A stretch of DNA of 64,000 nt from Pedococcus bigeumensis (GTDB lineage Bacteria > Actinomycetota > Actinomycetes > Actinomycetales > Dermatophilaceae). Made by a program: the position numbers and the translations under genes. The DNA lies in NCBI RefSeq assembly GCF_006438965.1, contig NZ_RCZM01000009.1, positions 1-64,000 on the forward strand, written 5' to 3'. Below, in pieces: positions 34,379 through 48,951 of the stretch. The number at the start of each line of letters is the position of its first letter. Position 1 is the stretch's first letter. The notes under the pieces are model-generated. The model made no database searches and had not been told where the DNA came from. It saw only the letters and a list, made by a program, of their open reading frames with translations.

Positions 34379-36043
34379 GTGTCGCCTGTGTCCAAGAAGG
34401 CTGCGAGCCCCGCACCGTCTCTTCCCCCAGAGTTCTCCCACCCCGCACTGCAGAAGCTGCTCAAGCAGGGCCGCACCAACGGCTCGGTTGACAGCGGTCA
34501 GCTGCGTGACGCCCTGGAGGGGGCCGAGATCGCACCCAAGCGGATGAAGGCCGTGCTGCGGTCCCTGGACGAGCAGGGCATCCACGTGACCCTCGACCCG
34601 GCGACCGCCACGCGTGCGGTGGCTGCGACCAGCACCCGGAAGAAGACTGCGACGGCACCGGCCAAGAAGGCTGCCGCCAAGACGGCTTCGCCTGCGGCCA
34701 AGCCCGCCGCAAAGGCTGCGGCACCCAAGGCCGAAGCCCCGAAGGCCGACGACAAGCCGGCGGCGAAGACGGCCACCAAGGCAGCCGCGACCAAGCCTGT
34801 GGCCACCAAGGCCGCGCCCGCCAAGGCGACCACGACCAAGAAGGCCGCAGCGGCAGCCGCGGGCGAGGCAGCGCCGGCCACCAAGAAGGCCGCGACCACG
34901 AAGAAGGCCGCTGCCAAGACGGCCGCCAACGGTGCCGCAGCCGATGGTGACGCCGCCGACAGCGACGCCCCCGCGGCAGAGCCCACCGACGTCGTGGTGG
35001 GGGAGCTCGAGGACGTCGTCATCGACGACGAGGACACGGACGACAAGAAGGACGAGGAGTCCGAGGGCGCGGGCTTCGTCCTGCGCGACGATGACGAGGA
35101 CGACGCCCCGGTCCAGCAGGTCGTCACCGCCGGTGCCACGGCTGACCCGGTCAAGGACTACCTCAAGCAGATCGGCAAGGTCGCCCTGCTCAACGCCGAG
35201 CAGGAGGTCGAGCTCGCGAAGCGCATCGAGGCCGGCCTGTTCGCCGAGGAGCGGCTGAACTCCGGCGACAAGATCGAGATGAAGCTCAAGCGCGAGCTGT
35301 GGTGGATCGCCCAGGACGGCAAGAAGGCCAAGAACCACTTGCTCGAGGCCAACCTGCGCCTCGTGGTCTCGCTGGCCAAGCGCTACACCGGTCGCGGCAT
35401 GTTGTTCCTGGACCTGATCCAGGAGGGCAACCTCGGTCTGATCCGTGCGGTCGAGAAGTTCGACTACACCAAGGGCTACAAGTTCTCGACGTACGCGACG
35501 TGGTGGATCCGCCAGGCGATCACCCGCGCCATGGCCGACCAGGCCCGCACCATCCGGATCCCGGTGCACATGGTCGAGGTCATCAACAAGCTGGCCCGCG
35601 TGCAGCGCCAGATGCTCCAGGACCTCGGGCGCGAGCCCACCCCGGAGGAGCTCGCCAAGGAGCTCGACATGACCCCTGAGAAGGTCGTCGAGGTCCAGAA
35701 GTACGGTCGCGAGCCCATCTCCCTGCACACGCCCCTCGGCGAGGACGGCGACAGCGAGTTCGGTGACCTCATCGAGGACTCCGAGGCAGTCGTGCCGGCC
35801 GACGCGGTCAGCTTCACGCTCCTGCAGGAGCAGCTGCACTCGGTCCTCGACACGCTCTCCGAGCGCGAGGCCGGTGTGGTCTCGATGCGGTTCGGCCTCA
35901 CCGACGGCCAGCCGAAGACGCTCGACGAGATCGGCAAGGTCTACGGCGTGACCCGCGAGCGGATCCGCCAGATCGAGTCCAAGACGATGAGCAAGCTGCG
36001 CCACCCGAGTCGGTCCCAGGTGCTGCGCGACTATCTCGACTGA
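34379..36043 (+). CDS. sigA: primary RNA polymerase sigma factor (RpoD/HrdB type)
   Basis: A protein of 554 residues. About residues 80-200 are an Ala/Lys-rich extension, followed by an acidic stretch (about 205-245), as in HrdB-type factors. Region 1.2 starts near 255 ([12 protein letters not shown]), region 2 covers 318-392 ([40 protein letters not shown]), and region 4.2 covers 514-544 ([20 protein letters not shown]). It recognises housekeeping promoters. The gene has a tyrosine-integrase element inserted at its 3' end: its last seven codons (LRDYLD plus stop) lie in the left attachment site, with the protein unchanged. No terminator follows its stop codon; the likely original one is at 46508. 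Confidence 0.95.
36024..36043 (+). other. attL: left attachment site within the sigA 3' end
   Basis: TGCGCGACTATCTCGACTGA is repeated at 46453-46472 with two differences, TAT/TAC and CTC/CTG, both silent third-codon changes. The first ten bases (TGCGCGACTA) are identical. The copy ends exactly at the sigA stop codon, so the element replaces the end of the gene with an equivalent coding sequence. Confidence 0.85.
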
Positions 36044-36118
36044 GACTCAGACGGTCAGGTCGGCGTTTCCGCAGGTCATTGCCCTGTAGAGGCTCTGACA
36101 GGCGACACGCTACACCCG

Positions 36119-36130
36119 CACAGCGCTCTT
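36119..36130 (+). other. candidate integrase arm-type site, left
   Basis: CACAGCGCTCTT is found here and at 46392-46403 in the same orientation, and again in part at 46431 (CACAGCGTTC). Each copy lies near an end of the element, outside the core repeats, as arm-type sites of tyrosine integrases do. AGTCCAG(G)ATAT also occurs next to both copies. Confidence 0.45.
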
Positions 36131-36147
36131 AGTCCAGATATCAGGCT

Positions 36148-37083
36148 ATGCTGCGTGTCGTGGCGAAGAAACCTGCTCAGCCGGACCTGCGGATGCTGCT
36201 GCCCTCGTGGCTCTTGTCGTTGCGCGCCGACCGCAAGAGTGAGCAGACCATCAAGACGTACTCCGAGGGCGTGCGGTTCTACCTCACATGGTGCCAGGAC
36301 AACGACGCGCCACCGCTCGAGCGCGCTAGCATCCGCGGATGGATCGCGGCGCTGCTCGACGGCGGCAACCAACCCGCGACGGCACGCGCCCGCCAGTTGG
36401 CGGTGCGACGGTTCACGTCATGGCTGGCCGAGGAGGGCGAGATCCCGGCTGACCCATTCGTGGGCATCAAGGCGCCCAAGCTCGACACGAAGGTGATCGA
36501 GCCCCTGACGGAGGACGAGCTGAAGGCCTTGCTCAAGGCGTGTGTGCCACCCAAGGGCGCGACGCCGGCCGAGGCCATGCGCCACCGCAGGGACGAGGCC
36601 ATGCTGCGGCTGATGCTCGAAACCGGCGCGAGAGCCGGTGAGGTGGTCGCCATCGAGCGCGACGACATCGACGCCACTGCCGGTACGGCCATCATCCGCA
36701 AAGGCAAGGGCGGCAAAGGCCGCGTGGTCCCGTTCGGACCACACACCGCCCTGGCGCTGGACCGCTACATGCGGCTGCGCACCCACCATCGCCTCGCAGA
36801 CAGCCCCGCACTGTGGCTAGGGGATCGTGGCAAGGGATTCAGCTACGACGCACTGCACAAGGCGCTGGGGGAGCGCGCCGCCGCCGCCGGGATCGTTGGC
36901 TTCCACCCGCACAAGATGCGCCACACCGCGGCTCACCGTTGGCTCGCCGCTGGCGGTTCCGAAGGTGGGCTGATGGCCGTAGCGGGCTGGACCCGACCCG
37001 ACATGCTGATGCGCTACACCAAGGCCCAGGCGTCCGCCCGTGCTGCGGAGGAAGCCCGAGGGCTCAACCTAGGCGAGATCTAA
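36148..37083 (+). CDS. int: tyrosine recombinase / integrase
   Basis: A protein of 311 residues. The N-terminal SAM-like core-binding domain covers about residues 10-100 (SWLLSLRADRKSEQTIKTYSEGVRFYLTWC). The catalytic domain has Arg162 (GARAGEV), His255-x-x-Arg258 (HPHKMRHT), Trp281 and the nucleophile Tyr290 (MRYTKAQ). It carries out integration at the sigA 3' end and, with a directionality factor, excision. It lies 104 bases downstream of sigA on the same strand without an intervening terminator, so read-through from sigA may help express it. The ATG gives the family's normal N terminus. Confidence 0.93.
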   Translation: MLRVVAKKPAQPDLRMLLPSWLLSLRADRKSEQTIKTYSEGVRFYLTWCQDNDAPPLERASIRGWIAALLDGGNQPATARARQLAVRRFTSWLAEEGEIPADPFVGIKAPKLDTKVIEPLTEDELKALLKACVPPKGATPAEAMRHRRDEAMLRLMLETGARAGEVVAIERDDIDATAGTAIIRKGKGGKGRVVPFGPHTALALDRYMRLRTHHRLADSPALWLGDRGKGFSYDALHKALGERAAAAGIVGFHPHKMRHTAAHRWLAAGGSEGGLMAVAGWTRPDMLMRYTKAQASARAAEEARGLNLGEI

Positions 37084-37403
37084 TAGTTATCTCAATATGT
37101 GAGATTGCTATTGACTTCGGCGTAAACGGGTTGCGCTGTGCTTCGGACCATGGCAGAGTCGCAACCAACACCCGCAGAGTTCCATGGGTGAGATTTAACT
37201 CGCTAGGCGCGAGGTGTGACTCAGGCCCAGGTGGCCGTTGGAAGCGCTCGATGCCGAACGACTGTGGGAGTTCGCCCAGGCGGTGAGTCCCTAGCCCGGC
37301 CCAGGAGGCCGTGAGGGCAAGTCGAGCGTGATCCGTAGGCCACTCGCCTCCGGTCACAGGCTCCTTGCCCGGATGACCAGAGGTCAATGAACCCGAGGTC
37401 ACC
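37084..37403 (+). other. 320-base intergenic region between int and the replication operon
   Basis: No convincing gene. It contains a short inverted repeat, ATCTCA-N5-TGAGAT (37089-37105), with a related TGAGATTT near 37190, and a TTGACT hexamer at 37111. This is the expected place for the promoter and operator of the operon beginning at 37404, but no complete promoter can be defined by eye. Confidence 0.4.
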
Positions 37404-37697
37404 ATGACTGAATCTGAGCGCAAGCTCCGTTCGCAGATCGCCGCCCACGAGTCTTGGGCACAGACCCCCAACCGCACCGCGCGCACCGCCAACGCGCGTG
37501 CCGGCCTTGACGCCAAGTTCCTCGCTCAGGCAGACGGCGACCCCATCGCCGCTGAACACCTGCGCAAGGCGCACTACCAGAGGCTCGCCCTGAAGAGCGC
37601 CATCTCGCGCCGCAAGTCCCGCGAGCTGACCGAGACCGCCGAGGCTGCCGAGGCAGAGCTGGACGAGCTCGGGGAGGCTGCGAATGATGCTGCCTGA
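37404..37697 (+). CDS. conserved small protein of actinobacterial mobile elements
   Basis: A protein of 97 residues, highly charged and helical: TESERKLRSQIAAHESWAQ, then RTARTANARAGLDAKFLAQA, then a Lys/Arg-rich helix and an acidic C terminus. Proteins of this type are often seen near primase genes in actinobacterial prophage-like elements (from memory, not searched); function unknown. GAGG lies seven bases before the ATG. The end overlaps the next gene by 14 bases. Confidence 0.75.
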   Translation: MTESERKLRSQIAAHESWAQTPNRTARTANARAGLDAKFLAQADGDPIAAEHLRKAHYQRLALKSAISRRKSRELTETAEAAEAELDELGEAANDAA

Positions 37698-37992
37698 CAG
37701 GTCCACCTGCTCGTTGGGCAACGAAATCCGCCCCAACCCGAAGGCTGAGGCGGACCCAAAGACGTTTGGCGGCGTCGATCCCATTCTAGCCGAGGATCAC
37801 CGTCTCTGGATTGGCGGCTATGACGCGGGTTATGCCGCGGGCCGTCAGGACGCCTCCGTGGATCTCGCGTGCGGGTGGTTGCACGCCGAGGCCCGACGCT
37901 GGACCGATCAGGCTGTGACGCTGGCCGAGGCGAACCACGGTAAGGGCTGGTCGGACGAGATCCGCGCCCAGGCAGAGGGGGTGGCCGCGTGA
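37684..37992 (+). CDS. hypothetical protein of mobile element
   Basis: A protein of 102 residues. The middle has a Gly/Tyr/Ala-rich segment (LWIGGYDAGYAAGRQDASV), followed by a Trp-containing helical part (DLACGWLHAEARRW) and an Ala-rich C terminus. I do not recognise it. It overlaps the gene before by 14 bases and the primase start by four, which supports it as a real member of the operon. Confidence 0.65.
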   Translation: MMLPDRSTCSLGNEIRPNPKAEADPKTFGGVDPILAEDHRLWIGGYDAGYAAGRQDASVDLACGWLHAEARRWTDQAVTLAEANHGKGWSDEIRAQAEGVAA

Positions 37993-39446
37993 GCGACGAC
38001 CTGCACCCGGAGTTCAAACGGATGCTCGGCATAGACGAGCCCACACCCGAGTACGCGCCCGCCGACGACCTCGAGCCGATGGCCGACTACGGCGACTCCC
38101 ACGCACACGAAGGCGAGCAGCACCGCGGGCAACTGCGCATGGCCTACCGACTGGCGGCCTGCTACACCGACCGACTCTTGCACGTTGCCAATGTCGGGTG
38201 GCACGTCTGGGATGGACATCGCTGGACCGTGGACGAACGCGGCGAGGCAGCCAAGGCCGTGTTCGACACCCTGCGTCAAGCGCTCGCTGAGGCCGTCGAC
38301 CTTCCCGGCAAGGAACGCGACCACCTCTATAGCGACGTGCGCAGGTGCGAGACAGCCGCAGGCGTTGACGGGGTGCTCAGGCTCGCCTCAGCCCTTGACG
38401 CATTCGCCGCCATCGTTGGCGACCTGGACGCAGATCCGTACCTGTTGAACACCCTCAGCGGCACGCTCGACCTGCGCACGCTCGACCTGCGCCCACATCG
38501 GCCGGCCGACCGGCTCACGAAGGTGTGCGGCACCGGATACGACGCAGGTGCAGAGGCGCCCACATGGGAGACGTTCCTCGCAGACGCGCTGCCAGACGCG
38601 GAGGTGCGCGACTTCCTCCGTCGCATGGTGGGGCTCTCGCTGGTTGGCAAGGTGGTCGAGCATGTTCTGCCGATCCTCACCGGCACCGGCCGCAACGGCA
38701 AGGGGACGATGGTTCGCACCCTCGCGGCTGCCATCGGGGACTACGCCATCGAGGCCGAGCCGGAGCTCTTCCTGGCCCGTGACCGAGCCCACCCGACTGG
38801 ACAGCTCGACCTTCGAGGCGTCCGACTGGCGACCTGTCAGGAGACCGACGAGGGCAAGCGGCTGGCCGTGGCGACCGTGAAGCGGCTCACCGGAGGCGAC
38901 ACGATCCGAGCGCGAGCGATGCGTCAGGACTTCGTGGAATTCGAGCCCTCCCATCTTCCCGTGATGATCACGAACCACCTTCCACGGGTGCCCGCGGACG
39001 ATCCCGCCCTGTGGGCGCGTCTACTGGTCGTGCCCTTCGACGTGTCATTCATCGGACGCGAGGACACCGGACTAGGCGACAGGCTCGCTCTTGAGCTGCC
39101 CGGAATCCTTGCGTGGGCCGTGCGCGGCTATGGCGAGTACGTCGAGCGCCGGCTCGACCCGCCGCAGGCCGTGAAGGTGGCAACCGAGCAGTACCAGGTG
39201 AGCGCCGACGCGCTGGCCCAGTTCATCGAGGAAGTCTGCTACGTCAACCCCTACGTGTTCGCCCGAGCCTCCGAGTTGTTCGCCGAATGGCAGGCGTGGT
39301 GCCGCGTCAACAGCGAGGAACCGGGCAACACGCGCCGATTCAAGGAGTCGATGGAAACGCGCGGCCATCAGTCACGGAAGACCAACAGCGGCAACGTCTT
39401 CCAAGGGCTCGAGGTCGTCAAGGAGGCCGTCGATGAGCGCTACTGA
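37989..39446 (+). CDS. phage/plasmid primase-helicase (P4/D5 family, SF3 helicase)
   Basis: A protein of 485 residues. After an N-terminal region typical of D5-type proteins (YRLAACYTDRLLHVANVGWHVWDG) comes a SF3 ATPase: Walker A GTGRNGKGTM with Lys238, then RLATCQETDEGKRL (Walker B-like), VMITNHLPRVPADDPALWARLLVVPF (motif C and arginine finger), then a winged-helix C terminus. No zinc-finger primase domain is visible, so it may be a helicase only. It would open the origin and drive autonomous replication of the excised element. GTG start overlapping the previous stop codon. Confidence 0.9.
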   Translation: MSDDLHPEFKRMLGIDEPTPEYAPADDLEPMADYGDSHAHEGEQHRGQLRMAYRLAACYTDRLLHVANVGWHVWDGHRWTVDERGEAAKAVFDTLRQALAEAVDLPGKERDHLYSDVRRCETAAGVDGVLRLASALDAFAAIVGDLDADPYLLNTLSGTLDLRTLDLRPHRPADRLTKVCGTGYDAGAEAPTWETFLADALPDAEVRDFLRRMVGLSLVGKVVEHVLPILTGTGRNGKGTMVRTLAAAIGDYAIEAEPELFLARDRAHPTGQLDLRGVRLATCQETDEGKRLAVATVKRLTGGDTIRARAMRQDFVEFEPSHLPVMITNHLPRVPADDPALWARLLVVPFDVSFIGREDTGLGDRLALELPGILAWAVRGYGEYVERRLDPPQAVKVATEQYQVSADALAQFIEEVCYVNPYVFARASELFAEWQAWCRVNSEEPGNTRRFKESMETRGHQSRKTNSGNVFQGLEVVKEAVDERY

Positions 39447-39454
39447 GCACAGAA

Positions 39455-39535
39455 GTGGAGGAAGTGGAGGGTTACTGCATTCATCCCGAACACATACACA
39501 TAGGGAGTTTGCCGAGAACCCTCCACCGCCTCCAC
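39455..39535. repeat. 19-bp inverted repeat with paired GTGGAGG motifs (candidate origin)
   Basis: GTGGAGGAAGTGGAGGGTT (39455-39473) pairs with AACCCTCCACCGCCTCCAC (39517-39535) with two mismatches and a 43-base loop. Each arm contains two copies of GTGGAGG spaced nine bases apart. The array starts nine bases after the primase-helicase stop codon; P4-like elements often have origin repeats near this gene. It could also be a transcription-attenuating hairpin. Confidence 0.5.
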
Positions 39536-39557
39536 TCACACGCCGTGAGGTGTCCCG

Positions 39558-39737
39558 ATGAGCCCCCGACTGGACCGCTACGGCGATCCCATCGAGGACG
39601 ACGACGAGCAGCCGGTGGCCGCTGACCTGTGCCGCGAGGCTCTCGCCAGGGCTAATGAGGCACGGAGATGCCCAGTCTGCTCAGGGCACCTCAAGCCCGG
39701 TTGGCTCGTCCACCCGAGCTGCAGGAGTGCCGCGTGA
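39558..39737 (+). CDS. small zinc-knuckle-like protein
   Basis: A protein of 59 residues. The N-terminal half is acidic (GDPIEDDDEQPVAADL). The C-terminal half has CPVCSGHLKPGWLVHPSCR, whose Cys/His arrangement suits one zinc site. The stop overlaps the next gene's GTG (GTGA), as throughout this operon. The function is unknown; small zinc proteins next to WhiB-like genes are frequent in actinophages. Confidence 0.6.
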   Translation: MSPRLDRYGDPIEDDDEQPVAADLCREALARANEARRCPVCSGHLKPGWLVHPSCRSAA

Positions 39738-39991
39738 ACGCCGCCGCCGCCGCCGAACGTCTGACAGCAGCCCTGGCAGACCTCGAAGACAAGGGCATCC
39801 GCTGGCCATGCAAAGGCCGACCGGAGTGGACGAGTGAGTCCGCCGAGGACCGCGAGTACGCCGCGGCCGGTTGCCGATTCTGTCCCGTGTTCGACCTGTG
39901 CGCCGCGATGGCAGACGAGACCAAGCCCACCGCCTGCGTTTACGCCGGCGTCGACCGAACCCCCAAAACCCGTACCAAGAAAGCGAGCTGA
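39734..39991 (+). CDS. WhiB-like iron-sulfur regulator of the element
   Basis: A protein of 85 residues with four cysteines spaced as in WhiB proteins: Cys26, Cys47, Cys50 and Cys56 (C-x20-C-x2-C-x5-C, in GCRFCPVFDLC). The part after the last Cys (ACVYAGVD) replaces the usual G-V-W-G-G turn only loosely. The family binds a 4Fe-4S cluster and interacts with region 4 of the primary sigma factor, notable here because the element sits in that gene. AGGAG before the GTG decides the start; an earlier ATG at 39668 lies inside the previous gene. Confidence 0.65.
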   Translation: MNAAAAAERLTAALADLEDKGIRWPCKGRPEWTSESAEDREYAAAGCRFCPVFDLCAAMADETKPTACVYAGVDRTPKTRTKKAS

Positions 39992-39993
39992 AC

Positions 39994-40185
39994 ATGATCA
40001 CCAAGAGCGAACGCCGCAGAGTGAGCAAGGCTGCAGATTGCCTCCTCGCACTCGCCATCCGCGACGCCGAGAATCTGAACCGGCGCAAGATGGCCGGCGA
40101 GGACGTAGCTGCCGAAGCCGTCGACCTGCTGCCCATTCTGGCGATTGTCGGGCGGATGCAGGACATTGCCGAGGGAGGCGCCTGA
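39994..40185 (+). CDS. small helical hypothetical protein
   Basis: A protein of 63 residues, basic at the N terminus (MITKSERRRVSKAADCLLALAIRDAENLNRRKMAGED) and hydrophobic-helical at the C terminus (VDLLPILAIVGRMQDIAEGG). The start is only two bases after the previous stop codon, and the stop overlaps the start of the next gene by one base. No recognisable domain; possibly a small regulator or scaffold protein. Confidence 0.55.
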   Translation: MITKSERRRVSKAADCLLALAIRDAENLNRRKMAGEDVAAEAVDLLPILAIVGRMQDIAEGGA

Positions 40186-40874
40186 TGGCCGCGCTGCCAG
40201 AGCCGTACAGAACCCTCTCGGCGACGATCGAGGAGATAAGGCGCGTTCAGAAAGGGCTCATCAACCGCTCGCCGTTCGCCTTCACCGGCATGCACACGAC
40301 CGGCCACAACGGAATGGAATCTGACGACTTCGACGGCGACCTTGATGCCGGCGACGCCGGCACCAAGGGCTGGTCGTTGAACAGCGCCCGCGCTGCCATC
40401 GGTGAGCTGTTCCTGCGCCCAGGGAGCATCACAAACGATTCGCTGTTGCAGCCGGTCGTGCCCGGTGTCGTCAATGCCGTCGACACTGCGTTTGCCCTCG
40501 TGGCTGCATCGTGGACGACCTTGGCAACGCAGAACGTCACCGTTCCGGCCGGCTGCACTCAACTGCTGGCGCACGTCACCGGAATGGTCTTCGTGGTCGA
40601 CCCGAACACCACGGGTGGATCCAACGGGGCCGGGGCCGACGTCGTACAAGCCCGCGTCTGCGTGGGCGCCACCAACGGCCTCACGGCGGGCGTGTCTATC
40701 AGCGGCTCCAACGGTCAGACGTCCGTGTCCTGCTCGGTCGCCGCACTGCTCACGGGCCTAACTCCTGGCGGCACGGTGACCGTGAAGACGCAGGGCGCCA
40801 CTGGATACCAGAACTTCGCCAGCAACGGTGCCAACCAAGCAAACGCCAGCGCCACGTTGGTGTGGCTGCGATGA
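40185..40874 (+). CDS. phage-like structural protein (tail/adhesin-like), function uncertain
   Basis: A protein of 229 residues. The first 60 are helical and acidic, the rest is beta-rich with many Gly, Ser, Thr and Asn residues (VTVPAGCTQLLAHVTGMVFVVDPNTTGGSNGAG, VSISGSNGQTSVSCSVAALL), as in phage minor tail or receptor-binding proteins. No enzyme motif. With the gene at 41209 it is the only structural-looking protein of the element. The start overlaps the previous stop and the end overlaps the next start by four bases. Confidence 0.6.
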   Translation: MAALPEPYRTLSATIEEIRRVQKGLINRSPFAFTGMHTTGHNGMESDDFDGDLDAGDAGTKGWSLNSARAAIGELFLRPGSITNDSLLQPVVPGVVNAVDTAFALVAASWTTLATQNVTVPAGCTQLLAHVTGMVFVVDPNTTGGSNGAGADVVQARVCVGATNGLTAGVSISGSNGQTSVSCSVAALLTGLTPGGTVTVKTQGATGYQNFASNGANQANASATLVWLR

Positions 40875-41212
40875 ACGGAGAACCCATGAACACCGACCCG
40901 ATTCAACTGCTAGGCGCCGACGATCTCGGACCTACTGGCTACTTCGGCCCAGACAGCGGCATCAAGCCCACGGAGCCCCGCAACGGCGCACAGGACCGCG
41001 TCAAGGCCGTCAAGGTTACCGACATACCCCAGCGCGATGCCGAGCCCGCTACGGTCGTTTCTGGGCTCACGCTCATGGCGTCCCCACCGATAAGCCTCGG
41101 GTGCGCGCGCCAGCCCTGCGGAGGCAGCCTCGAGAACGTCGACCCGCGCCACGTAGACAACCTCAAAGGCGTTTGGGTGTGCGACGAGCACCGCGGAGGC
41201 GATGCCGCATGA
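40871..41212 (+). CDS. hypothetical protein with Cys pairs
   Basis: A protein of 113 residues (ATG 40871; the ATG at 40886, with GGAG before it, is an alternative). The N-terminal half is acidic. The C-terminal half contains LGCARQPCGGSLENVDPRHV followed by WVCDEHRGG: Cys/His spacing that could form a zinc finger. It sits between two structural-looking genes, with four-base overlaps on both sides. Function unknown. Confidence 0.6.
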   Translation: MNGEPMNTDPIQLLGADDLGPTGYFGPDSGIKPTEPRNGAQDRVKAVKVTDIPQRDAEPATVVSGLTLMASPPISLGCARQPCGGSLENVDPRHVDNLKGVWVCDEHRGGDAA

Positions 41213-41982
41213 GCAGCAACTCATTCCTAGACACGGTGTTTGCCAGCAGCCGACGCCGAGTCCCCCGCGTTGGCCAAGTGATCTCCGTCAGTGACGGAAT
41301 CGCCCTCGTGAACGCCAACGGCGGCGAGGTGCCCGCGTTCGTCACCGACCACACCGGCCTCGTGGCAGTCGGCAACATCGTCACCATCAGCCCGCTGGGC
41401 GAGACGTACGAGCTGACGTCGATCCGCTCCGGAGGCACGCCGGCCGGCCTCGTGCTGGGATCCAACCTGCTGCCCAACCCAGGGTTCGAGTACGGCCCCG
41501 CGGGCGCGCCGCCTGACAACTGGACCGAATACACCACGACCGCGAACGCAGTCCTCGTGTGGGACAACACCGCAGGCGAGTCCCTGGCCGGCTCAGCGCG
41601 CGCCCTCGTGACCATGACACCCGACGTCGTTCCGGTTGACCACACCACCGCCTCACGACCCGTCATGGTCGACGACGGCATCGACTACCAAGGCTCTGTG
41701 TGGCTCAAAGCAGTCGGCACCGCCACCGCGTGGGCGTGCGTGCTCAAGGTGCTCACAGCCCCGGACGCAGCCAAATGTGAACCCGGTGACCCCGCAGCGA
41801 CAGAGACCACGCTCGCCACCGTCACTAGTCCCGGTGGCGCGTACCAGCTAGCCCTAGGCCCCATCACGGTCCCCGCCACCCACGGTTACGCCCGCCTGCT
41901 CCTGCAGACCACCGCAGACGCTGGCGCCGTCATGGTCGTGTCGTGGGACGAGGCCGCGCTACAGCAGAAGGTGACCCCGTGA
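41209..41982 (+). CDS. phage-like tail/carbohydrate-binding-like protein
   Basis: A protein of 257 residues. Residues 15-75 form a small beta domain (VGQVISVSDGIALVNANGGEVPAFVTDHTGLVAVGNIVTISPLGETYELTSI), resembling the OB-like N-terminal domain of minor tail proteins. Residues of about 85-250 look like a carbohydrate-binding jelly roll (NLLPNPGFEYGPAGAPPDNWTEYT opens CBM4/9-type domains). It may be a receptor-binding tail part, which would be surprising in an element without capsid genes. ATG overlaps the previous stop codon. Confidence 0.65.
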   Translation: MSSNSFLDTVFASSRRRVPRVGQVISVSDGIALVNANGGEVPAFVTDHTGLVAVGNIVTISPLGETYELTSIRSGGTPAGLVLGSNLLPNPGFEYGPAGAPPDNWTEYTTTANAVLVWDNTAGESLAGSARALVTMTPDVVPVDHTTASRPVMVDDGIDYQGSVWLKAVGTATAWACVLKVLTAPDAAKCEPGDPAATETTLATVTSPGGAYQLALGPITVPATHGYARLLLQTTADAGAVMVVSWDEAALQQKVTP

Positions 41983-42272
41983 GCAGCAGAGCCACCCACG
42001 CGCAAGTCACCTGCCGCGACTGCGACAAAACCGGTTGGGCGCACGTCGGGTTCACGGGTTGGCGTTGCTCTCTTCATAGGGACCGGACACCCGACGAACA
42101 GCCCCGGAAGCGCCCACAGGCCAACGATGACGGACCCCACGCAGGTAGCCCGTATAGGTGCCGAGCCCACCACGAAGTGCGTGTGGACCAGCGCGGCAGA
42201 GGGTGCGGGCTGTGCGCTCTCGAGCGCAACGCCCGCAAGGAACCCGAGCCTGATCGGTTGGAGATCCGATGA
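41979..42272 (+). CDS. Cys/His-rich hypothetical protein
   Basis: A protein of 97 residues with two zinc-ribbon-like parts: CRDCDKTGWAHVGFTGWRCSLH and RCRAHHEVRVDQRGRGCGLC. The linker is basic and Pro-rich. Nucleic-acid binding is possible but not shown. It starts at GTG overlapping the previous stop and ends overlapping the next ATG. Confidence 0.6.
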   Translation: MSSRATHAQVTCRDCDKTGWAHVGFTGWRCSLHRDRTPDEQPRKRPQANDDGPHAGSPYRCRAHHEVRVDQRGRGCGLCALERNARKEPEPDRLEIR

Positions 42273-42487
42273 CCGTCCTCATCATCGGGTGGTCCGGACG
42301 CCCCACCCCCGGTGGAGGCCGCAGCGCGGTCGCCGCCGTCGACGGGGTCAGAGTCCGCGTCCGCCGCAGCCTCTACAAGGTCCGTTGGCTGTGCGATGAC
42401 CACGGAGCCGAGAACTACCCGCATTGCCCCCACCTGCGCGCGCTCGCAGACGAGCCCGCCGACCCCACGAAAAGGAACCACTCATGA
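42269..42487 (+). CDS. small basic hypothetical protein
   Basis: A protein of 72 residues beginning MTVLIIGWSGRPTPGGG, with a basic central strand (VRVRVRRSLYKVRWLCDDHG) and a Cys/His pair at the end (YPHCPHLRAL). Together with the preceding protein it may bind a metal. ATGA overlaps on both sides make it a firm part of the operon, but I know no family. Confidence 0.55.
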   Translation: MTVLIIGWSGRPTPGGGRSAVAAVDGVRVRVRRSLYKVRWLCDDHGAENYPHCPHLRALADEPADPTKRNHS

Positions 42488-43281
42488 CCACCACCCAGGA
42501 CGCCATCGCCCACGCCAAGGCCCAGACCAACGCCGCCGTCGCCATCGGCGAATCCCGCGGCTGGGAACGCCCCGCCGACTTCGCCCGCCTGACCACCCTC
42601 GGCGCCGCAGCCAAGGCCGCCATCCGCGACGCAGACCCGGTGCCCGTGCCCTTGCCGACCACCGCTGCCCAGGTCGACGACTGGCTCGACCAGACCGCCG
42701 CCGCCCGCGTGCACGCCGCAGCCCGACGTAGCGCCGCCGAAGAACTCGCCCTCGACGCAGACCGCCAAGTCGCGCGACTTGGCCAGCACATCGCCGCCGA
42801 GTACGTGCCCAAGCTCGTCGAGGAGTTCGCCACGGAGCTCAAGGCCTACGCCGCCCTCGCCAACGCGCCGCGCACCATCACCGGCCACGAGACCGCCAAG
42901 GACTTGACGGCCCACGCGACGCTGCTGCGGTGCGCCGCCGACCTGGCTAGCACGCTCAACGCCCGCGCCACCCTCGCCCTCATCACAGGAGAGGCCGACG
43001 ACTTCGGCCAGGACGCAGTCTGGCTCGCCCTGGCCGTCAAGCCCAGCGCCGGCCTCGACGCCGTAACCCAGGCCGTCGCCACCTTCCACCAAGGCACGCC
43101 GTCGACCGTGGCCGACTGGGACAGCCTCGCCCCGCTCGGCCTCACACTGGCCCAGCACGGCGGGGCGCGTACCCGCATCGAACGCCACGCCGCAGCCAAC
43201 TTCACTCGCGGCACGACCACGCCAGATGGTGGCCTTGTGGAGCGGAGCTACGGCGAGGTTGAGGCAGGCGCGCTCCGGTGA
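42484..43281 (+). CDS. alanine-rich helical hypothetical protein
   Basis: A protein of 265 residues, almost wholly helical and Ala/Asp/Arg-rich, with many regularly spaced alanines suggesting coiled-coil or helical-bundle structure. One Trp-containing segment (AQVDDWLDQTAAARVHAAARR) recurs as a motif-like start. No catalytic signature. Possibly a scaffolding or structural protein, but this is guesswork. Four-base overlaps at both ends. Confidence 0.6.
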   Translation: MTTTQDAIAHAKAQTNAAVAIGESRGWERPADFARLTTLGAAAKAAIRDADPVPVPLPTTAAQVDDWLDQTAAARVHAAARRSAAEELALDADRQVARLGQHIAAEYVPKLVEEFATELKAYAALANAPRTITGHETAKDLTAHATLLRCAADLASTLNARATLALITGEADDFGQDAVWLALAVKPSAGLDAVTQAVATFHQGTPSTVADWDSLAPLGLTLAQHGGARTRIERHAAANFTRGTTTPDGGLVERSYGEVEAGALR

Positions 43282-43505
43282 GCAGCGCCGCCGACGAGTT
43301 CGCAGCCATCCTCGGTGTCACCGCACCGACCTCCGAGCCCGAGCCGGTCGAACCCGTCCGGCGCCGACCACGCCCCGACCCTAGCCAAGCGTCAGGTGCC
43401 AACGGCCCGACCGCCGTCAACCCCTCTGCCCGGTTCGCCGAGTGGATGGAAGACAACAACCGACGCGGTGACGGCAAGGGCAACTGGCGGCAGGTAGGCC
43501 CGTGA
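43278..43505 (+). CDS. small proline/acidic hypothetical protein, last gene of the overlapping operon
   Basis: A protein of 75 residues from GTG 43278: an acidic N terminus (SSAADEFAAILGV), a Pro/Arg-rich disordered middle, and a C-terminal RFAEWMEDNNRRGDGKGNW segment. It has no known domain. It closes the run of overlapping genes that began at 37404; after it come 78 bases without overlap. Confidence 0.5.
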   Translation: MSSAADEFAAILGVTAPTSEPEPVEPVRRRPRPDPSQASGANGPTAVNPSARFAEWMEDNNRRGDGKGNWRQVGP

Positions 43506-43583
43506 CAGGTAGACCAGACCACACCATGGGCTGAGTGGACACGCACCGACATCAGCGTGCACGACATCAGCAACCTAGCCCCC

Positions 43584-43733
43584 ATGCATGGCCACCCCTG
43601 CCCCACCTGTGGACGTACGTGCCACGAGGACAAGAGCAAGGCTGAGGCTGCACGAGGCAGAGCACGAGCACACACAAAGCGCAAAGCACAAGGCGTGAGG
43701 CCCGTCGAGAAGCACCCAGGTTCAATCACCTGA
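43584..43733 (+). CDS. short zinc-finger-like protein (49 residues)
   Basis: This very short frame, starting at ATG 43584 (or GTG 43557), encodes MHGHPCPTCGRTCHEDKSK, a tight cluster of Cys and His suited to one zinc ion, followed by a strongly basic tail. Such short proteins occur in actinophages, sometimes as HNH remnants, but no HNH core is present here. Evidence is limited to composition and the clean frame. Confidence 0.4.
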   Translation: MHGHPCPTCGRTCHEDKSKAEAARGRARAHTKRKAQGVRPVEKHPGSIT

Positions 43734-43856
43734 GCTCACGCACGTGAGGGGTGGGGCATAGACCCCCTCGGCAGGGGTTCCTGCGCGATGCGGGGTGGCA
43801 CCTCACCAACTGCGTGGGCCCAACGTCCATTTTTCTGAAAAGCGTGGAGAAACCCT

Positions 43857-44186
43857 ATGACATGTCCTGAGTGCTCTGGGCCGATGCCGAAGACCAAGGC
43901 GACTGGCCGGCCCGCCGTCTACTGCACCCCTGCGTGCCGACGATCTGCTGAGTACGCCATCCGTCGCGCCCAGATCCTGCTCACAAGGGCTCAGCGTGCG
44001 CAGCAAGACGCAGCCTTGCGCGTGGCGATGTCCACGTCGGCATGGGACATCAAGGATGCCGAGCCGCGGGCGGCGTTCTGGGAGGGCGAGGTGGAGCGCC
44101 TGCGCACGTCCCTACGCGAGCTGCTCGAGCAGGTCGGCACCCAGGACGACGAGTCCACACCGGGCACCACAGACCCTCGTCCGTGA
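43857..44186 (+). CDS. zinc-ribbon/coiled-coil hypothetical protein
   Basis: A protein of 109 residues. The first 30 contain CPECSGPMPKTKATGRPAVYCTPACR, a four-Cys zinc site of FCS/MYM-like type. Residues 35-95 are an amphipathic helix pair rich in Arg, Ala and Glu, probably a coiled coil. The C terminus is disordered. The ATG is preceded by GGAGAAACCCT. It may be a DNA-binding regulator; not assignable. Confidence 0.6.
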   Translation: MTCPECSGPMPKTKATGRPAVYCTPACRRSAEYAIRRAQILLTRAQRAQQDAALRVAMSTSAWDIKDAEPRAAFWEGEVERLRTSLRELLEQVGTQDDESTPGTTDPRP

Positions 44187-44349
44187 CTTTCTCCACGGTT
44201 TCGCTCAGATCCCCCAGACCCGTACTAACAGGCAGAGGCTAACCGAGTCGCGCTAGCACCTTGGCCGGGAGGGGGGTGGGTGGGCAGGGGCCTGAGATGG
44301 GGGAACGAACACGACGGAAGCACCGAGTTGAGAGGAATGTCGGACCCAA

Positions 44350-44574
44350 ATGAGACCGTATGAAACACTGAACTCAGAGGAGGACGAGATGGCATCTGCA
44401 GGACTGGCGGGGACGACGGCCACCAAGGCGGAGTTAGAGGAGTCCGTTCGGCGCGCCGTGCGTCGCGCCAACGTAACGCGTGCGCAGTTGCATGAGCAGG
44501 CAGAGGTCGGACGATTCAGCTCCGGCCGCGCTCGTATCGCTTGGGCTCTCGTCTCCGAACTTGAGAAGTCTTGA
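44350..44574 (+). CDS. small helical protein, first gene of an unknown two-gene cassette
   Basis: A protein of up to 74 residues; the ATG at 44389 (MASAGLAGTT) is an alternative start. It is helical and charged (KAELEESVRRAVRRANVTRAQLHEQAEVG), then SSGRARIAWALVSELEKS. Its end overlaps the next gene. Small first gene plus larger second gene resembles toxin-antitoxin or defence pairs, but no known family is recognised. It lies at the cargo end of the element, where satellites often carry defence genes. Confidence 0.5.
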   Translation: MRPYETLNSEEDEMASAGLAGTTATKAELEESVRRAVRRANVTRAQLHEQAEVGRFSSGRARIAWALVSELEKS

Positions 44575-45226
44575 TGTAGCTCGGGAGGGCCGAGAGTTCG
44601 CGGATCGGCTGTCGAGTCTGCTCAACCGTACGGTTACGGATGGGATCCGCCTGAGCTGGGCAACCCAGGGCGACTTCATTCACGTCGGTTACGGAGTGAC
44701 GCCCTCAGACCTTGGAGCTTCGAGTCCGTTTGCCGTCAATCCAGGCAAGGCGGGTCAAGGTCTCGCGCTATCGGTGTGGTTCCTTCTGGGGCCGGACGCC
44801 GAGGATGAATATGTTCAGGTGCAAACATCGGTGTTCGAGGTTTACGCCGACATCGCCGACGAAGGCTCGAGCCTCTTGCACGTCGACTATCAGCGAGACA
44901 AGGACGACTACCCCGAATCGCATCTGCAGGTCTACGCATCGAGTGAGCATTGGGAGCGCGCATCTACCCGCTCCTTGGATCGTCTTCATCTGCCCGTAGG
45001 CGGCCGACGCTTCAGGCCGTCGCTCGAGGATGTTCTGGAATTTCTGCTTGGGGAGGGGCTTTCGACCGGGCGCGCCGGCTGGGAGACGGCGATTGGCGAG
45101 CATCGTGACGCGTTCCGGCGCACACAACTGAAAGCGGCAGTGCGTCGCGATCCCGAAACAGCCCGCTCTGCCTTGGCCGACTATGACCAGCGCGCGAAAG
45201 CGACGGCCGCGCGGCGTAAGCGCTAG
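44561..45226 (+). CDS. hypothetical protein, second gene of the unknown cassette
   Basis: About 221 residues from a TTG at 44561; an ATG at 44480 in the same frame is the alternative, but it would overlap the upstream gene by 95 bases. The middle is beta-rich (FIHVGYGV, ALSVWFLLGPD, VQVQTSVFEVYADIA) and includes LLHVDYQRDKDDYPESHLQVYASS. It ends in RFRPSLEDVLEFLLGEGLS and a basic tail (QRAKATAARRKR). The His residues in HVDY and SHLQV could be catalytic, but I know no matching enzyme. A strong terminator follows. Confidence 0.55.
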   Translation: MRSLDVAREGREFADRLSSLLNRTVTDGIRLSWATQGDFIHVGYGVTPSDLGASSPFAVNPGKAGQGLALSVWFLLGPDAEDEYVQVQTSVFEVYADIADEGSSLLHVDYQRDKDDYPESHLQVYASSEHWERASTRSLDRLHLPVGGRRFRPSLEDVLEFLLGEGLSTGRAGWETAIGEHRDAFRRTQLKAAVRRDPETARSALADYDQRAKATAARRKR

Positions 45227-45310
45227 TTCTCACGGCGGCTCGTATCTAACAGAATCGGGCTCGTCTAACGGGGCGAGGTCAGGCGATCGTGAGCCGATGA
45301 TCTCGTTAGC

Positions 45311-45343
45311 AGCGGCACCCTGTCGGAATGACAGGGTGCCGCT
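45311..45343. terminator. bidirectional terminator inside the element
   Basis: A perfect 14-bp stem AGCGGCACCCTGTC (45311-45324) with GACAGGGTGCCGCT (45330-45343) and a 5-base loop. It lies between the plus-strand cassette and the convergent minus-strand control genes. Confidence 0.85.
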
Positions 45344-45360
45344 GTGTTGGGCGGGGTTGG

Positions 45361-45624
45361 TCAGGCGTTGGCCCCTGCGATGTCGGCAGCCTCGAGGATG
45401 TCAGCTGCCATCGTGCGCGCCTCCTGTGGCGTGAGGGCATTGCCGTCGCCCCACACTGCGACGTACGGCGGTGCCCCGTCCTCGCCCTCCTCGACGTTGA
45501 CGAAGTGACCAGCTGCGAGCGCCCGCTCCCACGAGCACGCCCCTCGGTCACCTGTGCTGTCGGGGGTGTGGTCGTTGCACCAGGGCTGATGCTGCGCGAC
45601 GGCCCGCGTCTCGGCGGTCATCAT
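45361..45624 (-). CDS. hypothetical protein of the element's control module
   Basis: A protein of 87 residues with an N-terminal Cys (QPWCNDHTPD), then GACSWERALAAGHFVNVEEGEDGAPPYVAVWGDGNALTPQEARTMAADILEAADIAG. The PPYVAVWGD...LTPQEAR stretch looks like a small beta-alpha domain; proteins of this kind are frequent in actinophages, without function. It starts at the end of the excisionase-like gene (ATGA overlap). Confidence 0.6.
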   Translation of the reverse strand: MMTAETRAVAQHQPWCNDHTPDSTGDRGACSWERALAAGHFVNVEEGEDGAPPYVAVWGDGNALTPQEARTMAADILEAADIAGANA

Positions 45625-46001
45625 GCCGTCACCGCCTGTGCTGCGAACTTCGGCCCGAACATCTGGACCATCTTGTCGTCGGTGGGCGCCGTTCCTGTGG
45701 CGTCCTCGATGAGGCGTGCGAACTCCTGTCGCTGGTGGGCAGTCGTTTCCGCCTCGAGGTCGGTCGCGTCGATCACGAGCGTGTGCCATGCGTCCAACTC
45801 TCCCGATTCGATGCGGCGACGGAGCTCGAGGATGGAGATGCCTGATTGCCGGGATGCCTCCTGGAGGGTGATGGCTTCCCCGCGACGTGGCGTGGTGCGG
45901 TACTTCTTGAGGTTGCTGCTCAGGCGGTCCGCGATAGTCATTCTGGGCCGCGTAGTTTCGCTGATGCCCACTACCTCGGTTGCGCTGGATGATGTGTTCA
46001 C
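45621..46001 (-). CDS. excisionase/MerR-like helix-turn-helix protein
   Basis: A protein of 126 residues. The central part EAITLQEASRQSGISILELRRRIESGELDAWHTLVIDATDLEAE follows the order of excisionase-type winged helices: recognition helix preceded by the L-x-E-A-A motif, then a wing and the L-x-D-L-E-A end. It is a good candidate for the recombination directionality factor or the element's repressor. It is the first gene of a minus-strand operon near the right end. Confidence 0.6.
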   Translation of the reverse strand: MNTSSSATEVVGISETTRPRMTIADRLSSNLKKYRTTPRRGEAITLQEASRQSGISILELRRRIESGELDAWHTLVIDATDLEAETTAHQRQEFARLIEDATGTAPTDDKMVQMFGPKFAAQAVTA

Positions 46002-46114
46002 GGTGGTTCTCCAATCGGGTTTGGTTGAACTGTCTAGGCCTCGCTGGGTGCTTGCTTCATCCGGCGGGGCCGTTCTGCATCCTGCCGCCGTGTGGTGACA
46101 GGGGCTCTGTGTTG

Positions 46115-46360
46115 TCAGGGCCGCGGGTACGACAGGCAGACCTTCGACCGCACGAGGTAGGCGTCATAGAGAGTTGCCCGCTCGGTCTGGTCGGTCGTGG
46201 CGTTGTAGTCGTGGCTGATCTGCACCGCCTGCTGGCACTCTGGCGCGACGTAGGGCGCTGCCGGTCCTGCGGTGGCTGAGCTGATGCCCAGGACCATCCC
46301 CGCGCCGATGATGGTCCCGGCGACCAGCGCGCCTACGGTGATGTTGAATGACTTGCTCAT
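46115..46360 (-). CDS. small secreted or membrane-anchored protein
   Basis: A protein of 81 residues starting at ATG 46360. An N-terminal signal sequence (SFNITVGALVAGTIIGAGMVLGISSATAG) is followed by a short domain with two cysteines (ECQQAVQISHDYN...SKVCLSYPRP), probably joined outside the cell. It may act at the surface, for example in exclusion of other phages; this is speculation. It lies close to the right attachment site. Confidence 0.6.
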   Translation of the reverse strand: MSKSFNITVGALVAGTIIGAGMVLGISSATAGPAAPYVAPECQQAVQISHDYNATTDQTERATLYDAYLVRSKVCLSYPRP

Positions 46361-46391
46361 GGGGTGATCCTCAGTCCAGGATATTTCGCCC

Positions 46392-46403
46392 CACAGCGCT
46401 CTT
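46392..46403 (+). other. candidate integrase arm-type site, right
   Basis: CACAGCGCTCTT, identical to the copy at 36119-36130. A related CACAGCGTTCAA follows at 46431-46442. Both lie within 65 bases of the right core repeat. Confidence 0.45.
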
Positions 46404-46452
46404 GACCTGCACGTTTGCAACGCTCACTTGCACAGCGTTCAAGCGTCTCTAG

Positions 46453-46472
46453 TGCGCGACTACCTGGACTGA
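46453..46472 (+). other. attR: right attachment site, copy of the sigA 3' end
   Basis: TGCGCGACTACCTGGACTGA encodes the sigA C terminus (R-D-Y-L-D-stop) in the same frame and orientation as attL, with two silent differences. The bases after it, leading to a strong terminator, are probably what originally followed sigA. Confidence 0.85.
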
Positions 46473-46507
46473 TGCGCGGTGCCGGGCGACCGGCATACCA
46501 AGGCGAT

Positions 46508-46542
46508 GACGAAGGCCCCCCGAGACTCGGGGGGCCTTCGTC
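46508..46542. terminator. strong terminator, probably the original sigA terminator
   Basis: A perfect 17-bp stem, 46508-46524 with 46526-46542 (core GGCCCCCCGAG/CTCGGGGGGCC). It lies 36 bases after the displaced sigA stop codon in attR and converges on the transglutaminase gene, so it serves both strands. In the uninterrupted chromosome it would directly follow sigA. Confidence 0.8.
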
Positions 46543-46563
46543 GTCTCGTATGCCGCCCGACGG

Positions 46564-48951
46564 CTACGCGCGGAAGTCGCGACGCGCCTCGCGCCAGTCC
46601 TGGAAGCGGACCACCGGCCTGCGCAGGATCCGCCCGACCGAGGCACGGCGTTCGCGCCATTCGATGAGGCCTTCGGTGGGCCACCAGGCGGCGCGCATCC
46701 GGTCCTTGCGCCGGCGCGCCCCGGAGACCGCCTTGACCACCGTCTGGGTGTCGGTGCGAATGTCGGCAATCGTGGCTCCGGGAGGGGCGTAGCGAGAGCG
46801 TTCCACGCCGGCGACGACGCGGTGCAGCGCCTCGGTCTGGTCCCCCTCGAGATAGGCCTCCCGCTGGTAGAAGCGGCCCGCCTGCCGGGGCGTGCTGCCA
46901 CGTGGGGGGATCACGCCGAGGTCACCGATCCGTTCGATCATGGCCTGCCACTCGATCTCGACCCGGGTGGACTCGTCCGGTGCGTGTCGCAGCCGACGGC
47001 GCAGCCGCCTGCGCGCGGCCAGCGGGACGGCGAGCGAGCCCAGGATCCCGATGAGGAGTCCGAGCACGATCCACAGGACCGTCGTCCTGGTGCGCGGCCC
47101 GAACCAGTTCCCGAAGGTCGAGCCGCTGCCCGTGGTGCTGACCGGGTCGGTGGCGCCGGGGTCGTTGCGACCGTCGGTCCGCGGGGCGGACGTCGTGGCG
47201 CCGCCGGTCGCGGTGTTGGTCGCGGAGCTGCCACCGCCGGGGGTCGTCGGGGCGAGCGAGTAGGGCGGTGCGACCGTGTTCTGGGTGCCGGACGGGGTGG
47301 GCTCGAACCGCAGCCAGCCGATGCCCTGGAAGTAGAGCTCCGGCCAGGCGTGCGCGTCCGAGGACCGCACGGTGTAGGTGCCCTTGTCGGCGGTGCCCGG
47401 GAGGAAGCCGATCGCCATCCGCGCGGGGATCCCGGCCTGGCGGGCCATCATCACCATGGCGGTGGCGAACTGCACGCAGTAGCCGGTCTTGGACCGCAGG
47501 AAGAGCGAGATCGCGTCGGGCCGCTCGTCCTGGCCGAACTGGTTCTTGACCGTCTCGGGCAGCTTCAGCGAGTAGGTGAAACCGCCGTCGGTGCGCAGGT
47601 ACTTCTGGATCGCGCGGGCGGCCTCGATCCGTGAGGCGTTCTGCGGCACCACGTCGTCGACCAGCCTGCTGAGGATGTCCTGTGAGGCAGGGTCGACCTG
47701 GAGGTCTTCCTGAAGGATGCCGCCGGTGGCGCCCTGGCGGTCCTGCGCGAGGGAGTCCTGGGTGGGGTTGAGCGCGAGGTAGGAGAAGCTGTACGACCGC
47801 GCGGCCCGCCGCACCGTGGCGACCGACGTGTTGCGGTCCAGGCCCCAGGTCACGCGGCCGAGGTCGGCGGACACCAGGGGGGTGGGCGCGGCGATCTGGG
47901 GCGCCTCGATGCGGGAGTCCTCCACGGAGATCCGGTAGGTCTCGCGTGGCACGTCCGCGGCGAGGTCGGGTGGCGGGTTGACGGTGGTGCGACGGCCGTA
48001 GTCCACGTCGTCGGGGTCCTCGCGCCAGGTGTCCGCGAGGTAGGTGTTGAGCACGCCCACACGCAACGGCGTCAGGATCGCGGCGTTGGTCGTGTAGCTC
48101 AGGACTGGGGCCTTGGACGGGTTGTTGAGGCTCTTGGTGAGGTCGAGGGTCGACTTGAGCCCGATCTGTCCGTCGCTGAAACCGGTCGAGTTGCCGGACC
48201 GGCCGAGACCGTCGATGAGGTAGCGCGTCGGGAAGTGGGGGATGACCACCGGCACCACGACCGCTGCGACCAACCCGGCGACGGCGAGGGTGCGGCCGAC
48301 CGCGGCATACCCGTAGGCGCCGTCGTGGTCGTCGGTGTTGCGCCGGCCGGTGGTGCTCATCGGCACGGTGGTGCTCCACCGCCGCAGCGAGGCGATGCCC
48401 TGCCGTCCGAGCATCAGCAGCCAGAGGCCACCTGCTGCGATGAAGAACATCGGGTGCAGGGACTCCCCGGAGTTCGAGGCCGAGATGAGGAAGGCAGTGA
48501 GCAGCGGCAGACCGGCGAGGGCGGGCGAGCGGCGCATCACGGCCAGGTGGTCGACGATCGTGGCGACAACGCCGATCGCCAGGCCGATGGCCAGGGTGAT
48601 GCCGCGGTTGGTGGGTGCCGGCGCGGCGTAGTTCTGGATCGTCTCGCGTGCGTCGACGAGAAGGTTGTTGAACGCCAGCACCATGTCCGGGGTGGGCAGC
48701 GCGTGCCACAGGTGGCCGCGACCGAAGAGCCAGGAGCCAGCCAGGACGACCCCGACCAGCTGCGCTGCCGCGATGGCGATCCAGGAGGTCGTGAGCATCC
48801 GGGCGAGGATGCCGACGAGCACCACCGCGAACACCATGCCGAGCATGGGGCGGATCCAGGTGTTCGGTGTGAACAGCGTGGTGAGTGGCCACGCGACGAC
48901 AGCAGACGCCGCTCCGGCGATGAGCGAGTCGGCAATACGTCCGCGGCTCAT
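46564..48951 (-). CDS. transglutaminase-like membrane protein (TgpA type)
   Basis: A protein of 795 residues. About six N-terminal membrane helices (residues 10-260, DUF3488-like) precede a periplasmic transglutaminase-like domain with Cys492 (SKTGYCVQFATAMVMMARQAGIPAR), then the catalytic His (SDAHAWPELYFQGIGW) and Asp/Glu partner. A final membrane helix (about 620-645) and a basic cytoplasmic tail follow. Members act with DUF58 and MoxR proteins in cell-envelope maturation. It overlaps the DUF58 gene by four bases, as in the common moxR operon. Confidence 0.92.
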   Translation of the reverse strand: MSRGRIADSLIAGAASAVVAWPLTTLFTPNTWIRPMLGMVFAVVLVGILARMLTTSWIAIAAAQLVGVVLAGSWLFGRGHLWHALPTPDMVLAFNNLLVDARETIQNYAAPAPTNRGITLAIGLAIGVVATIVDHLAVMRRSPALAGLPLLTAFLISASNSGESLHPMFFIAAGGLWLLMLGRQGIASLRRWSTTVPMSTTGRRNTDDHDGAYGYAAVGRTLAVAGLVAAVVVPVVIPHFPTRYLIDGLGRSGNSTGFSDGQIGLKSTLDLTKSLNNPSKAPVLSYTTNAAILTPLRVGVLNTYLADTWREDPDDVDYGRRTTVNPPPDLAADVPRETYRISVEDSRIEAPQIAAPTPLVSADLGRVTWGLDRNTSVATVRRAARSYSFSYLALNPTQDSLAQDRQGATGGILQEDLQVDPASQDILSRLVDDVVPQNASRIEAARAIQKYLRTDGGFTYSLKLPETVKNQFGQDERPDAISLFLRSKTGYCVQFATAMVMMARQAGIPARMAIGFLPGTADKGTYTVRSSDAHAWPELYFQGIGWLRFEPTPSGTQNTVAPPYSLAPTTPGGGSSATNTATGGATTSAPRTDGRNDPGATDPVSTTGSGSTFGNWFGPRTRTTVLWIVLGLLIGILGSLAVPLAARRRLRRRLRHAPDESTRVEIEWQAMIERIGDLGVIPPRGSTPRQAGRFYQREAYLEGDQTEALHRVVAGVERSRYAPPGATIADIRTDTQTVVKAVSGARRRKDRMRAAWWPTEGLIEWRERRASVGRILRRPVVRFQDWREARRDFRA

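Follow-up and report, generated by a model that had tools for sequence, protein, structure and literature searches.

Tyrosine integrases (Int-Y) of actinobacteria usually target transfer RNA (tRNA) genes, by the accounts given in PMC3218068 and PMC9262239. The main text of PMC10654092 places 7 of the 23 Int-Y sites of Mycobacterium abscessus outside tRNA and transfer-messenger RNA genes. Elements that integrate at the end of a protein gene and restore it are also already known. As described in PMC8092301, the attB-8 prophages of M. abscessus integrate by Int-Y inside the 3' end of MAB_2979 and exchange the last seven residues of its product for eight encoded by the prophage. In the account of PMC4482086, a family of tyrosine integrases is tied to the 5' end of one conserved protein gene of proteobacteria, dusA, in prophages and in diverse islands of which the integrase is the only universal feature. 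Here we describe a 10.4 kb segment of Pedococcus bigeumensis that lies between two copies of the end of sigA, the primary sigma factor gene, in a window of 64,000 nucleotides (contig NZ_RCZM01000009.1, positions 1 to 64,000; "the window" always means this whole stretch). We put at roughly 0.93 the probability that the segment is an integrated, phage-derived, small satellite-like element whose attachment site is the 3' end of sigA. What carries this interpretation is the repeat itself, the empty site in related genomes, the intact sigA tails, the recurrence in many genera and the copies of the attachment site of the circular form (attP) in phages.

The arrangement resembles the attB-8 prophages of PMC8092301 in that the target of a tyrosine integrase lies within the 3' end of a protein-coding gene, and differs in that the sigA tail is restored exactly. 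It resembles the dusA system of PMC4482086 in tying one integrase family to one conserved protein gene in prophages and diverse islands; unlike that system as described there, the target is a 3' end, the hosts are actinobacteria, and attP carries a spare stop codon and often a terminator. New are the sigA target, its spread over 21 named genera and the spare hairpin. No account of sigA or its homolog hrdB as an attachment site was found in the open-licence literature searched, with supplements outside the scope and most matches unexamined, and the words "sigma" and "sigA" gave no match in the main text of PMC10654092 (its supplementary tables lying outside the scope).

The target gene sigA (34379..36043, + strand; Pfam sigma70 regions 1.1, 1.2, 2, 3 and 4) gave the single match at E 1e-80 or better across the genome. 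A repeat search showed that its last 20 bases, TGCGCGACTATCTCGACTGA (attL core, 36024..36043, + strand), recur as TGCGCGACTACCTGGACTGA (attR core, 46453..46472, + strand), the former end of sigA. The two are identical at 18 of 20 positions and both differences are silent (Tyr TAT/TAC, Leu CTC/CTG). These 2 mismatches compare with a best of 5 in shuffled downstream DNA; the + strand of the 64-kb window holds no further copy of the sigA end with 5 or fewer mismatches, and the - strand has one site with 5. The attR codons are those of the genus, with TAC in 8/8 and CTG in 6/8 same-genus empty sites, while the attL codons (TAT CTC) occur in 0/8 and are identical to those in the attP of Streptomyces phage Kromp. 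This distribution places the crossover most likely within the first 10 bases of the core.

A gene for a tyrosine integrase of the sigA-targeting group (int, 36148..37083, + strand) starts 104 bases past sigA. Its product has the catalytic domain PF00589 (E 5e-25) and the N-terminal SAM-like domain PF02899, both above the Pfam cut-off, and matches phrog_1; alignment and tree agree with the assignment. Residues R162, K187, H255, R258, W281 and Y290 were invariant in 16/16 aligned sequences, and we take them to be the catalytic R, K, H, R, H/W and Y of lambda-type tyrosine integrases. A preliminary description made from the letters of the window had reported the 20-bp direct repeat of the last sigA codons 10.4 kb away, with two silent changes, and a tyrosine integrase 104 bases past sigA; the repeat search and the domain match bear out both.

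Two genomes of the same genus, G003 and G008, have an empty site, in which the DNA past the sigA stop aligns with the right flank of the window. The alignment scores were 112 and 128, against shuffle maxima of 28 and 25. In G003 the alignment runs from 32 bases past the sigA stop and from window position 46509, and in G008 from 38 bases past the stop and from 46488. The natural neighbour of sigA is a transglutaminase-like host gene (named by eye; 46564..48951, - strand), which lies just after sigA in both genomes (82% identity in G003 and 81% in G008). It was also found 97 bases past the sigA stop in G006 (71%) and about 1.2 kb past it in G007 (82% over part of the gene). Among 11 genomes of the genus, a whole integrase lies beside sigA in G000 and G004 and a partial one in G009, and the other 8 have none. 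Four of 24 empty sites (L005, L019, L022 and L023) hold a second, partial copy of the sigA end, of 9-12 bases within about 85 bases of the stop, each reached in 1% or less of 200 shuffles; these copies are possibly scars of lost elements or tandem duplications.

The end of the gene and its stop are intact in 79/79 loci labelled as sigA, which represent 74 distinct integrases; the protein ends in LRDYLD in 76, LRDYLE in 2 and LREYLE in 1. Two of these loci, L139 and L186, have sigma genes 70% and 77% identical to that of the window over the last 200 residues and these may not be primary sigma genes.

Copies of the spare gene end were found in phages. In Streptomyces phage Kromp (MH744420), a sigA/hrdB tail with its stop lies just before an integrase 55% identical to that of the window; a strong hairpin also precedes int in Kromp. 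Kromp differs in being a 58 kb phage genome where the window element is about 10 kb. Among 61 loci from viral contigs, 5 lie directly beside sigA, and in another 10 int is preceded by the core but by no sigA gene. An exact attP-type 22-mer was present in 8 viral contigs, and an integrase was seen in the fetched stretch of 6 of these; for L265 a protein search had located it in the contig concerned, and the stretch fetched for L258 held none. Viral contigs with such an attP and an integrase reach 79 kb.

The integrase is a member of a group that mostly targets the sigA 3' end, and we propose the following course of events. The attP of the circular form would consist of the right arm, a copy of the last sigA codons and stop, a terminator region, the left arm and int. 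Recombination in the first core bases (TGCGCGACTA) would swap the host gene end for that of the element, so that the last codons and stop of sigA would now be supplied by the element. The SigA protein is unchanged, and the old gene end with its terminator would have been pushed to the far side of the element.

The same site is used well beyond this genus. In an order-level search of 396 genomes with an integrase threshold of E 1e-40 or better, 11 had such an integrase; the matches of at least 60% identity (the window and L035-L040) abut sigA and those of 50% or less (L041-L045) do not. At class level the integrase was found in 33/394 genomes, and 6 of 28 newly fetched loci (L059-L086) abut sigA. 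At phylum level 17/346 genomes matched the family profile, and 3 of 21 fetched loci abut sigA: the window, L238 (from the genome that also holds L063) and L239, a locus from beyond the class whose sigma gene is 77% identical. The occupancy counts from these genome searches are lower bounds, with 5 or 6 candidates scored per genome and overlapping samples. In a named genome collection, 58 of the best 80 of 192 integrase relatives abut sigA. These 58 loci come from metagenome-assembled genomes without a genus name and from 21 named genera: Nocardioides, Janibacter, Knoellia, Phycicoccus, Actinotalea, Modestobacter, Geodermatophilus, Nakamurella, Brachybacterium, Micrococcus, Glutamicibacter, Actinomyces, Streptomyces, Wenjunlia, Mycobacterium, Mycolicibacterium, Rhodococcus, Nocardia, Dietzia, Pseudonocardia and Actinomadura. 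A search for plasmids with the integrase returned 343 records, all below 60% identity (28-34% among the matches listed).

The preliminary description had called for the alignment with related genomes and for the search of other actinobacteria reported above. Its statement that the element enters an essential gene and restores the coding sequence agrees with the empty sites, the tails and the phage copies. It had also called sigA an unusual target on the ground that most known sites in actinobacteria are tRNA genes. The literature cited at the outset supports that ground, with the M. abscessus exceptions; sigA itself is not an odd one-off, as one integrase group docks there repeatedly. Near-invariance of the protein end keeps the sigA target sequence almost constant, and one attP can therefore suit hosts of many genera, which would explain the spread. 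For actinobacterial genetics, the sigA end offers a broad-host integration site.

The sigA-site integrases are strongly clustered in the integrase tree, yet they form neither one clade nor a single branch. In this quick tree of 153 integrases (147 labelled, long branches flagged), with a "sigA" label that takes in nine rows having the core without a sigA gene, the target label needs 14 changes compared with 47.9 in shuffles, a count that is somewhat too high because attP lies further upstream in at least one row, L175, that carries the label "other". The starred branches of the tree force at least 5 changes. Thirteen of 23 non-sigA integrase relatives scanned by ARAGORN hold a tRNA gene. Other relatives sit at gene ends named by eye, namely those of a riboflavin synthase, a LigD-like polymerase and the 5' end of efp, and the relative in L241 adjoins a gene whose DYYLD end is similar to that of sigA. 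Such natural target switches (by eye: riboflavin synthase, the DYYLD-ending gene and others) are material for the study of how integrase specificity changes. At the 5' end of efp (L068 and L153, by eye), the gene lies upstream of int in the opposite orientation. In L126, from Nocardia, the core precedes an integrase of the group without sigA and sits within what looks by eye like a different integrase gene, which may be a secondary site.

Conserved motifs flank the core on both sides. The left ends share GCACAGCGCTcctAGTCcAGATATc in 71/79 loci, mostly 61-66 or 71-76 bases past the sigA stop, about one helical turn apart; in the window the conserved left-arm motif is CACAGCGCTCTTAGTCCAGATATC (36119..36142, + strand), a candidate integrase arm site just upstream of int. 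The 33 right ends with a defined far core share GCACAgCG beginning 23 bases before the core, and the corresponding consensus motif in the window is GCACAGCGTT (46430..46439, + strand). With GCACAGCG motifs on both sides of the conserved core, the left and right motifs are probably the arm sites of the integrase.

The ends also differ in their hairpins. In the attP of Kromp and of the viral contigs L264, L260, L259 and L261, the 75 bases past the stop fold much better than shuffled sequence (z-scores of -3.4 to -6.7), whereas the element DNA right after the sigA stop in the window (36044..36118, + strand) folds weakly (z -1.3). The terminator-like hairpin of the host sigA (46505..46545, + strand; z -7.3) lies just after sigA in G003 and G008 and is displaced 10.4 kb from it in the window. 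Hairpins are generally weaker at occupied sites: 43/79 of these have a z below -2, compared with 21/24 empty sites (medians -2.5 and -3.8). The attP thus often brings codons, stop and terminator-like hairpin, in effect a spare gene end, the terminator part being weak in the window. The spare hairpin of the phage attP offers a testable idea on how an element might leave an essential transcript undisturbed. The preliminary description had also proposed a link between element state and sigA expression, which may exist; the protein is unaltered, and the change lies in the sequence past the stop. In the window, transcription may continue past sigA into int. A poor hairpin is followed there by int on the same strand, so that the sigA promoter would drive int when the element is integrated and not otherwise. 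More tentatively, and as a whole less likely than not, we suggest that the sigA 3' end may be a class-wide actinobacterial dock contested by full phages and 10 kb satellites with one integrase group. Their attP would be a complete spare gene end, and a weak spare terminator would admit sigA transcription into int only upon integration; the growth-linked sigA promoter would then help to set the integrase level and hence the stability of the element.

Thirty-three elements with both cores span 4.9-16.6 kb, and 29 of them, from different genera, measure 8-11 kb; for most, the downstream stretch of 10 kb caps the size that could be found. In nine loci the search covered at least 18 kb; seven had a far core at 6.1-16.6 kb and two had none. 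Models built from these elements found a phrog_2842 gene downstream of int in 32 of the 33 and an HK97-type capsid gene in 19 (one a fused fragment). Twenty proteins of such elements compared with PHROGs included a portal (L169), a small terminase (L046), tape measures (L046 and L054) and capsids (L047, L054 and L109). The 16.6 kb element of G004 (L046) has the small terminase and a 1354-aa tape measure, and no capsid was found in it; L054 has its capsid and a 647-aa tape measure within 8.9 kb. In the main text of PMC10654092, candidate phage-inducible chromosomal islands (PICIs) of Mycobacterium combine an integrase with capsid genes, and helicase, terminase or scaffold genes are present in some. 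This description fits many sigA elements, the mycobacterial L109, L113, L130, L160 and L164 among them. The Int-Y examples drawn in that paper, by contrast, are at tRNA genes, and the window element has no recognised capsid. Of the marks of a PICI or phage satellite, the window element has an integrase, a replication module, small size and the lack of a full phage gene set; no capsid, terminase or other packaging-related gene was recognised in it. We regard it as satellite-like, either with packaging genes of unrecognised type or possibly crippled. Such an element would presumably depend on a helper phage and may still be mobile.

Several observations weigh against this interpretation. No capsid, terminase or portal was recognised in the window element with Pfam, PHROGs or the element-built models, so the label of satellite rests on its relatives. 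The first 36 (G003) or 15 (G008) bases of the right flank do not align with the empty sites, and the 1.5 kb of DNA after sigA did not contain the neighbour gene in 4 of the 8 empty sites of the genus. When far cores were sought without codon constraint in 68 of the 79 loci (the other 11 having too little DNA), the best match had 0-4 mismatches in 35 and only 5-8 in 33, much like the 4-7 of shuffles, so that these 33 have no far core in the DNA covered and no defined extent. In favour of the interpretation, 19 of the 35 attL/attR pairs differ, at 39 positions in all, and both copies encode identical residues in 18 of them, so that attP is kept as coding sequence; the pairs were picked by similarity, which biases them toward agreement. 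The exception, L050, is the sole non-synonymous pair, and its change is in the discarded copy. A codon-patterned search gave agreeing translations in 33/33, a synonymy nearly forced by the pattern that we do not use as evidence. Finally, integration and excision of the window element are events that we infer rather than events observed.

The segment could also be the remnant of a full-length prophage, left by a temperate phage that entered at sigA and lost most of its structural genes. The size of Kromp and of the viral contigs with the same kind of attP and integrase fits such an origin, and decay is seen at the site, with partial integrases in G009 and G035 and a 4.9 kb element where a single fused open reading frame (ORF) is matched by both the phrog_2842 and the capsid model. 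Repeated decay would hardly explain the similar sizes of most elements across genera and their shared phrog_2842 and capsid genes, an argument that the limited downstream DNA weakens as far as size is concerned; we regard decay as possible and on balance unlikely. It is far less probable that the element is conjugative or mobilisable and not phage-derived. Actinomycete integrative and conjugative elements (AICEs) with tyrosine integrases are common in actinobacteria by the account of PMC3218068, but a Pfam scan of 19 element ORFs gave no match to an FtsK/SpoIIIE-type translocase or an AICE-type Rep, and the primase is of the D5 phage type. That sigA and int are vertically inherited neighbours with a repeat by chance has a negligible probability: the integrase subgroups do loosely track host groups in the tree, but same-genus empty sites contradict such descent, attP occurs in phages and the repeat is beyond chance level.

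The satellite-like element set out above encodes further proteins. The phrog_2842 protein (37404..37697, + strand; E 2e-16) has a 44% homolog near int in Kromp and is a candidate for some control or excision role common to these elements. It is followed by a small protein shared with the G004 element (37684..37992, + strand; 48% identity; no Pfam or PHROGs family) and by the D5-type primase/helicase of the replication module (37989..39446, + strand; PF08706 E 6e-31, phrog_6088 DNA primase E 1e-105). The next gene is a weak match to WhiB (39668..39991, + strand; 21.6 bits, under the Pfam cut-off of 23.6; phrog_9926 E 4e-7). A 257-aa protein (41209..41982, + strand) had no match and a 265-aa protein (42484..43281, + strand) no reliable one. 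Near the right end, a 126-aa protein (45621..46001, - strand) is helix-turn-helix-like by eye with no reliable family match; our guess is a directionality factor or regulator. Defence cargo was considered, and a PADLOC scan of 10 window proteins gave no match at 1e-3.

A 229-aa protein (40185..40874, + strand) without a family match follows the WhiB-like gene, as it does in other phage-like elements. It, the 257-aa and the 265-aa proteins had no match in the phage search. Homologs of the 229-aa protein were found in 5 others of 149 family genomes. Its structural model, of middling confidence (predicted local distance difference test, pLDDT, 69.7; predicted template modelling score, pTM, 0.54), shows a single helix at the N-terminus and a C-terminal half rich in beta structure. 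In a same-genus genome (L234:10206-13805), a WhiB-like gene and a homolog of the 229-aa protein stand with an HK97-type capsid gene in another phage-like region, whose integrase reads as a different one (by eye).

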